From Candidatus Peribacteria bacterium (GTDB lineage Bacteria; Patescibacteriota; Gracilibacteria; UBA1369; 2-02-FULL-48-14): a DNA stretch of 64,000 nucleotides. Shown piece by piece: positions 12,320 to 16,303 of the stretch. The stretch's first letter is position 1; every line of letters begins with the position of its first letter. The stretch lies in contig CALQZQ010000002.1 in the NCBI GenBank assembly GCA_943349825.1, positions 62,001 through 126,000 of the forward strand, read 5' to 3'. The notes below the pieces were generated by a model that was given only the letters and a program-made list of their open reading frames with translations, was not told the origin of the DNA and ran no database searches. A program made the position numbers and the translations under genes.

Positions 12320-13740
12320 TTGAGAGTGAGAGTGCGTGTGATTCCTATTTTACTCACAAAATAGCTGTCATGGGAAATGATCACCATCGCTACGTCTTGT
12401 TCCAGCAAAAATCGTTCCAAATCTTCACGCAAGAAAATATCGAGGTGATTCGTAGGCTCATCGAGCAAGAGCAAGTCCGGTTTATTCGTGAGCAAAATCG
12501 CAAATTCCAAACGACGTTGTTGCCCGTAACTCAGCTTCTTTATTTTCTCGTCGATCAGCTCAGCAGGGAAGAGATAGCCCGCCAAAATATTGCGCGTGTG
12601 AGTGTGATCAAAAATCGTCCAGCGCCCGAATTCTTCGAGCACCGTGGCCTCCGGATTGAGCTGAGAAAATTGTTTCAAATAACCCACTTTCACTTTTTCG
12701 CGCGCCTGCCGTGTGCCCACAAAATCTTTGTCTTCACCGCACAAAATCTGCAGCAGCGTGGTTTTTCCGCTGCCGTTTGGTCCACGCAAAAGCACACGTT
12801 CTCCGCTCGCAATTTTCAAATCCACGCCCTCCAGCAAATGCTTCTCACCAAAACTTTTGCGCTCAATTTTCAGGTTCAAAACCGTTCCTGCCTGCGCCGA
12901 AGCGAGGTCGCGCATCCGCACACGCGGGTCGGGCACGGGCTCGGGCGGCGCTTTCTTTTCCAAACGCTCCAGCGCCTTTTTCTTCTGCGCCACGGTCGCC
13001 GTAAATTTGTATTTAGGATGGTTCGCATTCTCGGCCAGCCACTCTTCCAGCTCCGTCACTTCACGCTGGCTAAACTCGTGCGCCGCCAACATTTTCTGGT
13101 ACCGATCGTAACGCTCCACCAAGAATTGATCGTACTTGCAGCCATAAATTTCAATGCTGTGCCGGGGCGTGATCTCCCAAATTTGGTTCGCCACCGCATT
13201 GATGAAATGCCGATCATGGGACACAAAGGCCACCGTCCCGTTGAAGCCCGTGATGAAGCCCTGTAGCCACGCGATACTTTCTTGATCCAAATGATTCGTG
13301 GGCTCATCCAAGAGTAAAATCGTAGGGTCCTGCAGCAAAAGTTCCGCGAGCCCAATTCTCACTCGCTGGCCTCCGCTCAGTTTATTCAGTTCCACCAAAG
13401 CGATCTCCGGCGCGAGCCCCAACTCTTCGTACACCATGTCGATTTTATAACTCATCCATTCTTCTTCGAGTTTGCTCTCCAAATACGCACCCACCAGCAT
13501 CGTTTCATCCGGAAAATTAATGTCCTGGTGCAAATGCGAGATCACTTCGTGCGAACAATTCACTGCTCCAGCCGAAGGCTCCAACTCGCCCTTCAAAAGC
13601 TTAATGAGCGTGGACTTCCCACACCCATTTTTACCCACAATCGCCACACGCTTCTTCGCGCTGCTGTCCAGCGACAGATCCACGTTTTCAAACAGTGTGC
13701 CACTGGGGCCTTCGTAACCGAGTTGTCGAGTGATGAGCAT
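12316..13740 (-). CDS. ABC-F family ATP-binding protein
   Basis: Two ABC cassettes (GKNGCGKST, GPNGSGKTT; LSGGQRVRIGLAELL, LSYGQQRRLEFA) separated by a charged linker. Confidence 0.94.
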   Translation of the reverse strand: MLITRQLGYEGPSGTLFENVDLSLDSSAKKRVAIVGKNGCGKSTLIKLLKGELEPSAGAVNCSHEVISHLHQDINFPDETMLVGAYLESKLEEEWMSYKIDMVYEELGLAPEIALVELNKLSGGQRVRIGLAELLLQDPTILLLDEPTNHLDQESIAWLQGFITGFNGTVAFVSHDRHFINAVANQIWEITPRHSIEIYGCKYDQFLVERYDRYQKMLAAHEFSQREVTELEEWLAENANHPKYKFTATVAQKKKALERLEKKAPPEPVPDPRVRMRDLASAQAGTVLNLKIERKSFGEKHLLEGVDLKIASGERVLLRGPNGSGKTTLLQILCGEDKDFVGTRQAREKVKVGYLKQFSQLNPEATVLEEFGRWTIFDHTHTRNILAGYLFPAELIDEKIKKLSYGQQRRLEFAILLTNKPDLLLLDEPTNHLDIFLREDLERFLLEQDVAMVIISHDSYFVSKIGITRTLTLK

Positions 13741-13791
13741 AAAAGTGGAAAATTTTCCCAGAGTGTACTATACTTTCCCTCTTTAACGAAT

Positions 13792-14595
13792 ATGGAAAAC
13801 CCAATACTGGATCAACTCTGGGAAGAAGCCTTGAAAAGGGGTCAATACCTCGATGAAGTCAACATCTTAAGGGCCCAGGGGCGAAAACCGGCTCTCAACC
13901 CACACCCGTTGTGGCTGGAAGTCCGCGCAGCCGCACTGAAAGAAAGGAGAGAGGGGCTGAGTGAGGAACACGAAGTTCATGCCAAGGTCCTTGAGACATT
14001 GGGTACTCTTTTGACGGGCAGAAAGCTCACGGATCTTTTCTCAGGAGAATCCTTAGTGCCATTGGCTCTCCTGATGGATGGAAAAATCGACCGGGTGAAC
14101 CTTCTGGACAGCGGGGAAAGCAACGCCCCTCAAATCGCCCAGCACCTCATTCAAAAGTTCAAATTGACCGGCGCTACCCTAGACAAAACAAAAGTTCCAT
14201 CCCTAGATTTACGCCCATTCCTCCGCAAATCATCTCAAGTCACCATCATCAATTCAGGTTTGGTGCTTCCTCCAGAGCTCCGCAGACCCGACTTAGCCAC
14301 GATGAGTCCCCAAGAACAAAATAACCCGCGCCTATTTCGAGCCCGCCATTTAACAGTTGCTCCCACCAGTCCCATCCACCGGTGGAGCGGGGTGCTGAAT
14401 GGACTGGACGATTGCCGTGCGGGGACCGTACTTCACGCTTTTGACGCGCCCTTTCATCCGGCAGACGACAAAGCGCTTCACGACTACTTAGCGGCAGAAA
14501 CCAAACAAGCGCGAGGTGGCTGGGAAATCGTGCAAGAAAGGAAAATAGAAGAAGAGTTAAACCTCTGGCACTTCCAGTTGGAAAAGAGGAATTGA
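13792..14595 (+). CDS. hypothetical protein
   Basis: ORF 13528-14595 trimmed to the ATG at 13792 (MENPILDQLWEEALKRGQYLD), which removes overlap with the ABC-F gene; TATACT upstream. Confidence 0.65.
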   Translation: MENPILDQLWEEALKRGQYLDEVNILRAQGRKPALNPHPLWLEVRAAALKERREGLSEEHEVHAKVLETLGTLLTGRKLTDLFSGESLVPLALLMDGKIDRVNLLDSGESNAPQIAQHLIQKFKLTGATLDKTKVPSLDLRPFLRKSSQVTIINSGLVLPPELRRPDLATMSPQEQNNPRLFRARHLTVAPTSPIHRWSGVLNGLDDCRAGTVLHAFDAPFHPADDKALHDYLAAETKQARGGWEIVQERKIEEELNLWHFQLEKRN

Positions 14596-14599
14596 GTAC

Positions 14600-14628
14600 T
14601 TGCACAAAACAACGAATCATGCTACAAT
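14600..14628 (+). promoter_or_regulatory. sigma70-type promoter TTGCAC-N17-TACAAT driving the tandem RNA repeats
   Basis: TTGCAC at 14600-14605, TACAAT at 14623-14628, spacer exactly 17. Confidence 0.7.
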
Positions 14629-14660
14629 AGTATGATGTTCGTTGAAAATACGTCTGATCC

Positions 14661-14995
14661 CGCTAGAAACTTGGTGTCAACCGGGTCGTAAGAAGCCACG
14701 CCGTCTCACGACGCTCCCTGACTCTTTACTGCCCAATACGCCCCAAGTTTCATAGCCCAAGTAAGCCTGCTTCCTTACACCACCTAGAGTGTATCGGGGC
14801 ACTATCACCTCATTTTTTCCCTTGGTACGTACTTCGGTACGTTGTGGAAAGAAAAAAGGAATAGACAGATCGCGAAAAGAAAAATCACGCTTCGGTGTGG
14901 TTCTCCTTCTAGCAAGAGACACCTCCAGTGATGGATATGTATTCAACTCTAAACTCTTATCTGATGCTGAACGGACTATGGAACATTAGGGCGTT
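14661..14995 (+). ncRNA. candidate structured non-coding RNA, copy 1 of tandem pair
   Basis: About 340-nt unit repeated at 15016. Shared blocks CGCTAGAAACTTGGTGTCAACCGGGTCGTAA, CGCCCCAAGTTTCATAGCCC, TAGACAGATCGCGAAAAGAAAAATCA, AACATTAGGGCGTT. Long-range helix GCTAGAAACTTGG/CCAAGTTTCATAGC; UUCG hairpin at 14883-14902. Confidence 0.7.
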
Positions 14996-15015
14996 ATCCG
15001 CCCCTTGAAATCTCA

Positions 15016-15360
15016 CGCTAGAAACTTGGTGTCAACCGGGTCGTAAAGATCTGGAAACGCTGGTCCCGCAAGGGCACGTCGTTCCCACGCCTTCTTTATT
15101 GCCCAATTACGCCCCAAGTTTCATAGCCCCAGTAAGCCTGGTTTACACGTCTTCCCAAAGCAGTGTGGGCCACTAGGACCTCGTTTTTCTTCAGGGACTG
15201 AGAGAAGAAAGAAAAAGGCTTAGACAGATCGCGAAAAGAAAAATCATGCTTCGGTGTGATTCTCCTTCTAGCAAGAGACATTTCCAGTGATGGTATGTAC
15301 TTCAACTTTAAACTCTTATCTGATGCTGAACCGACTATGAAACATTAGGGCGTTTTTTTT
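15016..15360 (+). ncRNA. candidate structured non-coding RNA, copy 2 of tandem pair, ending in T8
   Basis: Homologous to 14661-14995 with variable hairpin tips; ends AACATTAGGGCGTTTTTTTT. Confidence 0.7.
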
Positions 15361-15364
15361 GTGC

Positions 15365-16303
15365 TCAAGCTTTAGATAGAGCGGCCTCTCTTTTGATGTG
15401 AGCCTTTGATTTCCAGTAGAACAGAACCACTATCGCAAAGGTGACAACCGGAGAGAACCATTCAGGGATATGTAAGCCGAAGGCGTGTCCAATCATCACA
15501 CTTCCAAGCACCAGAATGGAATACATCGCACCATTTTTTAGATAGAGGTATTTTTTGATTCGTTCCACGTTCCCAACAGTGATTTGGCGCACCACAATGG
15601 CTCCCAGCCCATTTCCAAGCAAGATCAGCGGGACAGACAAAGTGAATGCAAATGCTCCCAGCACTCCATCAATAGAGAAGGTCGCGTCGATCACCTCCAG
15701 GTACATGATTTTGCTCAGATCACTCATGCCACTGGCTCCGGAAAGCATTTGTGACTCGGCTTTCTCGGCATTTTCTTTGAACCCATGAGTAATGAAAAAA
15801 GCGGTGGATCCAATCACGGCTCCAAAAGCCATAACGGGATTTTCTTTAAGGGCAAACCACACCAGCACGCTCAGCACAATGGACACCACGGCGTAAAACC
15901 AAACCCCTTGTGCATGGAAAAATTTCTCCCCTTTGATCCCATAGTTTTTGGGTTCCAAAAAGAGCCAATGGAAGAACAAAAATACAAGAAAAGTACCTCC
16001 TCCGGCCATCAAGATAGGAGCCGCGGTTTCAATAGCGGTGATGACCGCGGGGTCACTACTGAAGGTAGCGGTCAGCGAACCGATGAAACCCAGCGAAGGC
16101 ACGGTGGCCCAAACAATCACCCACGGCAACAGTCCACGAACCATAAAAACGGCGATCAAAATTCCCCAGAACAAAAACCAGCGACGAGCCTTGGCACTCA
16201 TGGTGTGCAAGACTTCCGCATTGATGATGGCGTTGTCGATGCTGCTGATCGTCTCAAAGAGACAGAGGCCTGCGACCGTCAGAAATATTGTAAACCAATC
16301 CAT
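15365..16303 (-). CDS. DUF475 / TerC-like integral membrane protein
   Basis: Multiple TM helices; LFETISSIDNAIINAEVL, MYLEVIDATFSIDGVLGAFAFT motifs. Confidence 0.88.
   Translation of the reverse strand: MDWFTIFLTVAGLCLFETISSIDNAIINAEVLHTMSAKARRWFLFWGILIAVFMVRGLLPWVIVWATVPSLGFIGSLTATFSSDPAVITAIETAAPILMAGGGTFLVFLFFHWLFLEPKNYGIKGEKFFHAQGVWFYAVVSIVLSVLVWFALKENPVMAFGAVIGSTAFFITHGFKENAEKAESQMLSGASGMSDLSKIMYLEVIDATFSIDGVLGAFAFTLSVPLILLGNGLGAIVVRQITVGNVERIKKYLYLKNGAMYSILVLGSVMIGHAFGLHIPEWFSPVVTFAIVVLFYWKSKAHIKREAALSKA

Follow-up and report, generated by a model that had tools for sequence, protein, structure and literature searches.

The window analyzed here (the whole 64,000-nucleotide stretch of DNA, part of a 12-contig genome of 1.25 Mb) carries two units of about 340 nt, paralogous to each other, each of which encodes a real structured RNA on the plus strand. 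The RNA belongs to a family of ~260 to 360 nt that, among the genomes of the class and of its phylum sampled here, is confined to the Peregrinibacteria, and we are all but certain that this is a genuine structured RNA family. The family is new, being absent from Rfam 15 and from the literature found; an ornate standalone RNA of unassigned function is in itself a known kind. The reading that we favor, with a probability of roughly 0.6, is that of a standalone, trans-acting, ornate RNA that is transcribed in the style of rRNA, with its 5′ strand displaced by the 3′ end once transcription is complete.

The two aligned units lie on the plus strand at 14661-15012 and 15016-15367. The copies share 78% identity over the unit (E value of 4e-69), and their starts are 355 bp apart, which bears out a preliminary description of a unit of about 340 nt occurring twice at this spacing. 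The strands quoted in that description, GCTAGAAACTTGG (14662-14674 and 15017-15029), CCAAGTTTCATAGC, ACGCCC, and GGGCGT, are present as written. The two TTCG hairpins likewise are present, with changes between the copies that are compensating or preserve G-U pairing, and ACGTAC-TTCG-GTACGT is found in copy 1 only, as had been claimed. The promoter reported to precede the pair and the T8 said to close it are in place, the latter after copy 2 (Table 1). No third copy was found in a search of the whole 1.25-Mb genome. Copy 1 has a local hairpin, GGGCG-TTATC-CGCCC, where a terminal T tract would be expected; the other full-length members run straight into a T run. Because copy 1 ends in this hairpin and not in a T tract, the tandem pair probably is transcribed as one RNA. 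The open reading frame directly upstream of the RNA (window positions 13528-14595, 355 amino acids from the longest start) gave no Pfam match at an E value of 0.001.

Table 1. Positions of the features of the RNA locus in the window
Feature	Position	Strand	Basis
RNA promoter, TTGCAC-N17-TACAAT	14600..14628	+	Sequence; equivalents at equal distance in nearly all single-copy homologues
BoxA-like element TGTTCGTTGAAAAT, transcript 5′ end	14636..14649	+	Family conservation; the 23S leader of the same genome (L121) has TGTTCCTTGAAAAT
Copy 1 5′ domain	14662..14756	+	Folding; covariation of the equivalent hairpin in 16 relatives
Copy 1 5′ domain, 5′ strand	14662-14674	+	
Copy 1 5′ domain, inner stem	14683-14733	+	
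Copy 1 5′ domain, middle strand	14738-14756	+	
Copy 1 core, multibranch, closed by the middle strand and the 3′ strand (14976-14994)	14737..14994	+	R2 match of 142 bits; A6 covariation
Copy 1 local hairpin GGGCG-TTATC-CGCCC in place of the U tract	14989..15003	+	Sequence
Copy 2 5′ domain (5′ strand 15017-15029, inner stem, middle strand 15109-15127)	15017..15127	+	Alignment to copy 1; folding
Copy 2 core (3′ strand 15335-15353)	15108..15353	+	R2 match of 151 bits, E value of 5e-35
T8 tract, transcript end	15353..15360	+	Sequence; T run at the equivalent place in nearly all homologues

A covariance-model search, as the preliminary description had proposed, was carried out and revealed that the unit recurs in related genomes. 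A single copy, with 76% identity and a promoter and T run of its own, is present in the second species of the window's genus; it adjoins the same TerC/DUF475 gene as the window's pair, on the upstream side. The covariance model R1, built on the 133-nt 3′ domain from three sequences (the two window copies and one congener), detected the RNA in 14 of 90 genomes from the order, and almost every match was full length. The two weakest (E values of 0.03 to 0.05) were later confirmed by a second model, R2. Inspection of the flanks of the R1 matches revealed the complete common RNA, comprising promoter, 5′ element, 5′ hairpin, core, and T run. R2, a 224-nt core model built on an alignment made without structure (A5), had matches in 18 of the 361 genomes of the class, with E values (rough by construction for covariance models) down to 1e-56, and the covariance models together identified 21 full-length members; four members outside the training set of R2 (G004, G022, G042, and G233) scored 138 to 223 bits with it. 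No members were found outside the class in a 389-genome sample of the phylum, in a first look that scores few candidates per genome and so may miss weak members. When 40 of the order's negative genomes were searched with greater sensitivity, one extra, divergent member (G065; E value of 1e-4) and a doubtful match in G067 came to light. The most conserved block, a 26-nt signature, occurs in 13 named GTDB stretches, all from Candidatus Peregrinibacteria or Peribacteria except for one labeled "Patescibacteria group bacterium." Pairwise identity among the members goes down to 45%. The designation "tandem pair" is right for the two adjacent copies in the window and does not extend to the family, since the tandem is a local duplication and most genomes are single-copy. 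Two genomes of another family (G058 and G060, genus g43) carry two dispersed copies each, and every copy sits in a conserved context: one is followed by a convergent ABC-F ATPase gene, and the other lies near an EF-G (fusA) gene.

Scans against Rfam 15 agree with the earlier failure to match the locus to any known RNA family. There was no match at the locus when the whole window was scanned at the gathering threshold, and a relaxed scan of the 1.1-kb locus gave chance-level matches only (E values of 3.9 and 9.6). In relaxed scans of eight homologous loci, no family exceeded its threshold at the RNA. We also considered whether the RNA might be RNase P RNA or tmRNA in disguise. This was ruled out, since both are located elsewhere and neither model matches at the locus: the RNase P RNA (RF00010) of the window's genome is on another contig, over the cutoff at 160 bits, and its tmRNA also is on another contig. 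Each of the 15 member genomes tested had a match to tmRNA (RF00023), over the cutoff in 13; the matches below it were weak and mostly tRNA sized. Literature searches on structured or noncoding RNA in Peregrinibacteria, Peribacteria, Gracilibacteria, Patescibacteria, and the candidate phyla radiation (CPR) returned nothing relevant, the nearest paper being on a diverged RNase P RNA in CPR, a different RNA (PMC8172020).

Covariation across the homologues was strong. In A5, which was made with MAFFT without reference to structure, 44 pairs had changed on both sides, and the covariation score was 0.48, compared with 0.22 for shuffled and at most 0.13 for slid alignments. A6 has 22 rows and was fitted to the model, which makes it somewhat favorable to pairing; in it 93.3% of cells pair, two-sided changes occur in 51 of 63 pairs with all helices contributing, and the score was 0.53, compared with 0.23 shuffled and at most 0.13 slid, where the permutation and shuffle nulls remove the relatedness of the members only in part. 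Compensatory pair changes thus are observed across divergent members, as expected of a structured RNA family. The preliminary description had named a known-family match, a lack of covariation, and absence from related genomes as refuting outcomes, and on all three counts the results favored a new RNA.

The core is multibranched, with five to seven covarying helices. It is closed by H1, which is formed by the middle strand and the 3′ strand (18 pairs). The conserved loops of the core are UUCCCAAA, carried by H2; GGGCUU, on H3 and its extension; AGURAUG; and a GNRA-type loop on H4, in place of which the window's genus has TTCG or TTTT on a longer stem. H6 is formed by CAGAU/AUCUG, swapped for GCGAA/UUCGC in G042 and G043. 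An AGC strand covaries with the GCU of the conserved GAUGCUGAA block (A6 columns 32-34/253-255). A short helix, H7, emerged from an all-against-all covariation scan and was picked post hoc on that very alignment. A candidate pseudoknot between AAGCCU and the GGGCUU loop was rejected; the two are complementary in 91% of cells, and their covariation is not above that of shuffles.

Single-sequence folding energy was rejected as evidence, being unremarkable on the plus strand (z scores of -1.5 and -2.1 for the two copies) and stronger on the minus strand of copy 1 (z score of -3.9). Because the energy is uninformative, the call of the plus strand rests on the promoter, the U tract, the 5′ element, and the G-U and compensatory changes in homologues, all of which support the strand assigned originally. 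The minus strand contains frames of 89 and 69 codons over copies 1 and 2, and a protein gene there would explain why the frame is open in both copies, with products that are 64% identical. However, the equivalent frame of G001 contains several stops, the other members have no common frame, and the promoter, T run, and G-U-type changes all lie on the plus strand. A minus-strand gene is refuted by these broken frames in relatives, and we assign it a negligible probability. No reading frame is conserved across the family members.

Comparison of the members showed that the middle strand has two conserved partners. Pairing with the 5′ strand gives a long 5′ hairpin, whereas pairing with the 3′ end gives the core-closing helix of ~18 bp, which abuts the U tract. 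Two long-range helices had been described previously; both pairings are conserved, but family-wide they compete for one middle strand instead of forming side by side. In G014, for example, the 5′ strand GAACCUUGGGGCGCA pairs with the middle strand UGUGUCUCAAGCUUC and runs on into the inner stem. The resulting hairpin, of ~25 bp, has two-sided changes at 16 of 26 pairs among 16 members. The 3′ strand (e.g., GAAACUUGGGGC), nearly identical in sequence to the 5′ strand, has the same 12 middle-strand bases as its partner. In most members, about 11 of these 12 common positions are paired whichever state is adopted, more than with strands re-dealt at random among members (P ≤ 0.0005 for each pairing). 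In G069 a middle-strand A is matched by U in both the 5′ and the 3′ partner, and in the divergent G065, where the block is altered, the 5′ and 3′ strands nevertheless are both CTTAGGGAG, matching the middle CTCCCTGAG. By constrained folding, no more than a few kcal/mol separate the two states in the majority of members. The window's genus has a weaker middle/3′ pairing (8 to 9 of 12 positions); there, the 5′ strand lies mostly on the middle strand's distal half and GGGCGU on its proximal half, with an overlap of ~1 base. With the halves of the middle strand nearly separate, both helices could coexist in this genus as the pseudoknot implied by the preliminary description.

In almost every single-copy member, the gene begins with the -35/-10 pair of a sigma-70 promoter (e.g., TTGACT-N17-TATTAT), continues with the 5′ element, and closes with a T run. 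The family consensus of the 5′ element is GUUCNUUGAAAA, and the element is also present in the leaders of 23S rRNA: in the window's genome, the 23S rRNA leader has TGTTCCTTGAAAATTCG and the RNA has TGTTCGTTGAAAATACG, and close versions of the element occur in the 23S leaders of G060, G003, G069, G050, and G014. The 16S leaders have a different version. A search of ten genomes with TGWTCWTTGAAA gave mostly chance matches besides the RNA itself and one 23S leader. We propose that the 5′ element is a boxA, with putative binding of NusB/S10. A motif of the 16S leaders, CTTTGACA, was dropped as the boxA counterpart because it can pair with the trailer and because the 23S leaders match better.

The match of the 5′ element to its counterpart in the 23S leaders of these genomes, together with a closing helix that resembles the leader-trailer helix, also would suit a regulator of rRNA antitermination or ribosome assembly, in which a 23S-type boxA in the RNA titrates or recycles Nus factors or the RNA takes part in ribosome biogenesis. 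Yet a simple decoy would need no conserved multibranch core, the element may serve only the RNA's own transcription, and the RNA is missing from most relatives; we consider such a role unlikely, if worth bearing in mind.

Several features of the rRNA loci themselves were noted. In the 23S leaders, a terminator-like hairpin with a T run (e.g., GGGTGTATGGAATCCATACACCC TTTTT) directly precedes the boxA-like element or lies a short way upstream of it, ~100 to 240 nt before 23S. It was observed at L121 (the window's genome, G000:C1 upstream of 139800), L120, L122, L123, and L124. An upstream strand, ATACCCTATAG, could compete for this hairpin. The arrangement recurs in five genomes and has the look of a conserved attenuator preceding 23S rRNA. 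The 23S gene of the window's genome is ~50 kb from 16S and has its own leader, i.e., the rRNA genes are unlinked, and at the 16S loci L083 to L088, genes other than 23S lie within a few hundred bases after 16S. Unlinked rRNA genes have been reported for many CPR bacteria. At a separate locus (L114; G004:C4:112552, minus strand), a TTGACA-N17-TATAAT promoter and TGATCTTTGAAAAATAG are followed by a segment of ~100 nt with a possible long-range stem and then a strong terminator. The segment is not recognizably a member of the RNA family (10.9 bits) and is possibly a second, smaller boxA-led RNA.

The genomic context of the RNA was compared among families, and no common neighbor gene was found. 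The downstream genes vary (TerC, uracil-DNA glycosylase, EF-G, ABC-F, RecG, aspartate carbamoyltransferase, and others, as named from their sequences), and at most loci the downstream gene points the opposite way. This bears on the idea of a cis-acting attenuator or riboswitch in which the 5′/middle and middle/3′ pairings act as antiterminator and terminator to control downstream read-through, an idea that the T run after the 3′ strand and the conserved, mutually exclusive pairings would fit. However, a cis-regulatory leader should precede a conserved gene on the same strand, and here the neighbors differ between families, many of them convergent. In addition, the RNA is far larger than such a switch requires, and the greater part of its conserved structure is situated between the two switch strands. 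This explanation therefore appears improbable.

Within families, the context is better preserved. Family f1 carries the RNA in a single region of partial synteny, where a beta-CASP nuclease gene is nearby in G000, G001, and G004. The loci of genus g43 also are syntenic, with the two dispersed copies each keeping their own context. From this synteny, inheritance looks mainly vertical, with losses and duplications. Being present only sporadically (in 18 of the 361 genomes), the RNA is unlikely to have a core housekeeping role. GOLLD and ROOL often are phage borne, and the patchy distribution of the present RNA, with dispersed or tandem copies in some genomes, might likewise suggest a mobile or selfish element that is intron-like, retron-like, or carried by phage. 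But the signature block had no match in 2.9 million viral contigs, there was no blastn match in 50,697 phage records, and no adjoining gene recurs across families, while synteny is kept within g43 and f1. We regard a mobile origin as very improbable.

Our favored reading, of an ornate RNA made in rRNA style and completed by strand displacement, would proceed as follows, both the sequence of steps and the release of the 5′ strand being inferred. BoxA would render the polymerase antitermination competent, as on rRNA. The 5′ hairpin would form first, holding the middle strand occupied while the core folds. The 3′ strand, as it emerges, would pair with the exposed distal part of the middle strand, branch-migrate, and displace the 5′ strand. 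This displacement would close the core, much as the leader-trailer helix does in rRNA, aid termination, and free the 5′ strand. The closed core would be the functional part, most likely as a ribonucleoprotein (RNP) or an RNA-only scaffold. We see about even odds for a broader formulation: a new class of ornate RNA from an antiterminated, rRNA-style gene, its fold finished by exchange of the 5′ and 3′ strands over a common middle strand. In this version, either the released 5′ strand or the core, once closed, would act in trans and might serve as a ribozyme, as a scaffold for an RNP, or as a homo-oligomer with swapped strands.

New large structured RNA classes are rare in bacteria, and no paper on such a class from the Peregrinibacteria branch of the CPR was found. 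The hosts of this RNA are known here from metagenome-assembled genomes alone. Given its well-supported secondary structure, sizeable set of homologues, and precise gene ends, the RNA lends itself to immediate in vitro synthesis and probing. If the strand exchange is true, the RNA would offer a natural system in which boxA-modified polymerase guides long-range RNA folding outside rRNA.

Among known systems, tmRNA and RNase P RNA are alike in length, in being single-copy standalone genes, and in their intricate folds. The likeness to rRNA units is one of architecture: both have a promoter, a boxA-like element near the 5′ end, and a long helix joining a strand 5′ of the core to the 3′ end. In Escherichia coli, at least 17 bp of the rRNA leader-trailer helix are needed for active 30S subunits (PMC10250234). 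Unlike rRNA units, the present product has no small- or large-subunit rRNA match, and its core-closing strand has a second, upstream partner. Riboswitch and attenuator platforms share the mutually exclusive 5′/middle and middle/3′ pairing and the terminal U tract, but here there is no conserved downstream gene, and it is between the competing strands that the conserved domain lies. The closest kind is that of the ornate orphan RNAs, without detected homology: OLE, ROOL, and GOLLD likewise are standalone, large, intricately folded, and conserved, with multibranch cores, and their covariance models are absent from the Rfam matches at the locus and at the eight homologous loci. The present RNA differs from them in being smaller and restricted here to one candidate class, in having its own three-strand choice, and in that no phage link was found in the viral contigs and phage records searched. 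OLE, ROOL, and GOLLD form RNA-only homo-oligomers (PMC12286853), and the common middle strand of the present RNA would permit strand-swapped dimers as well.
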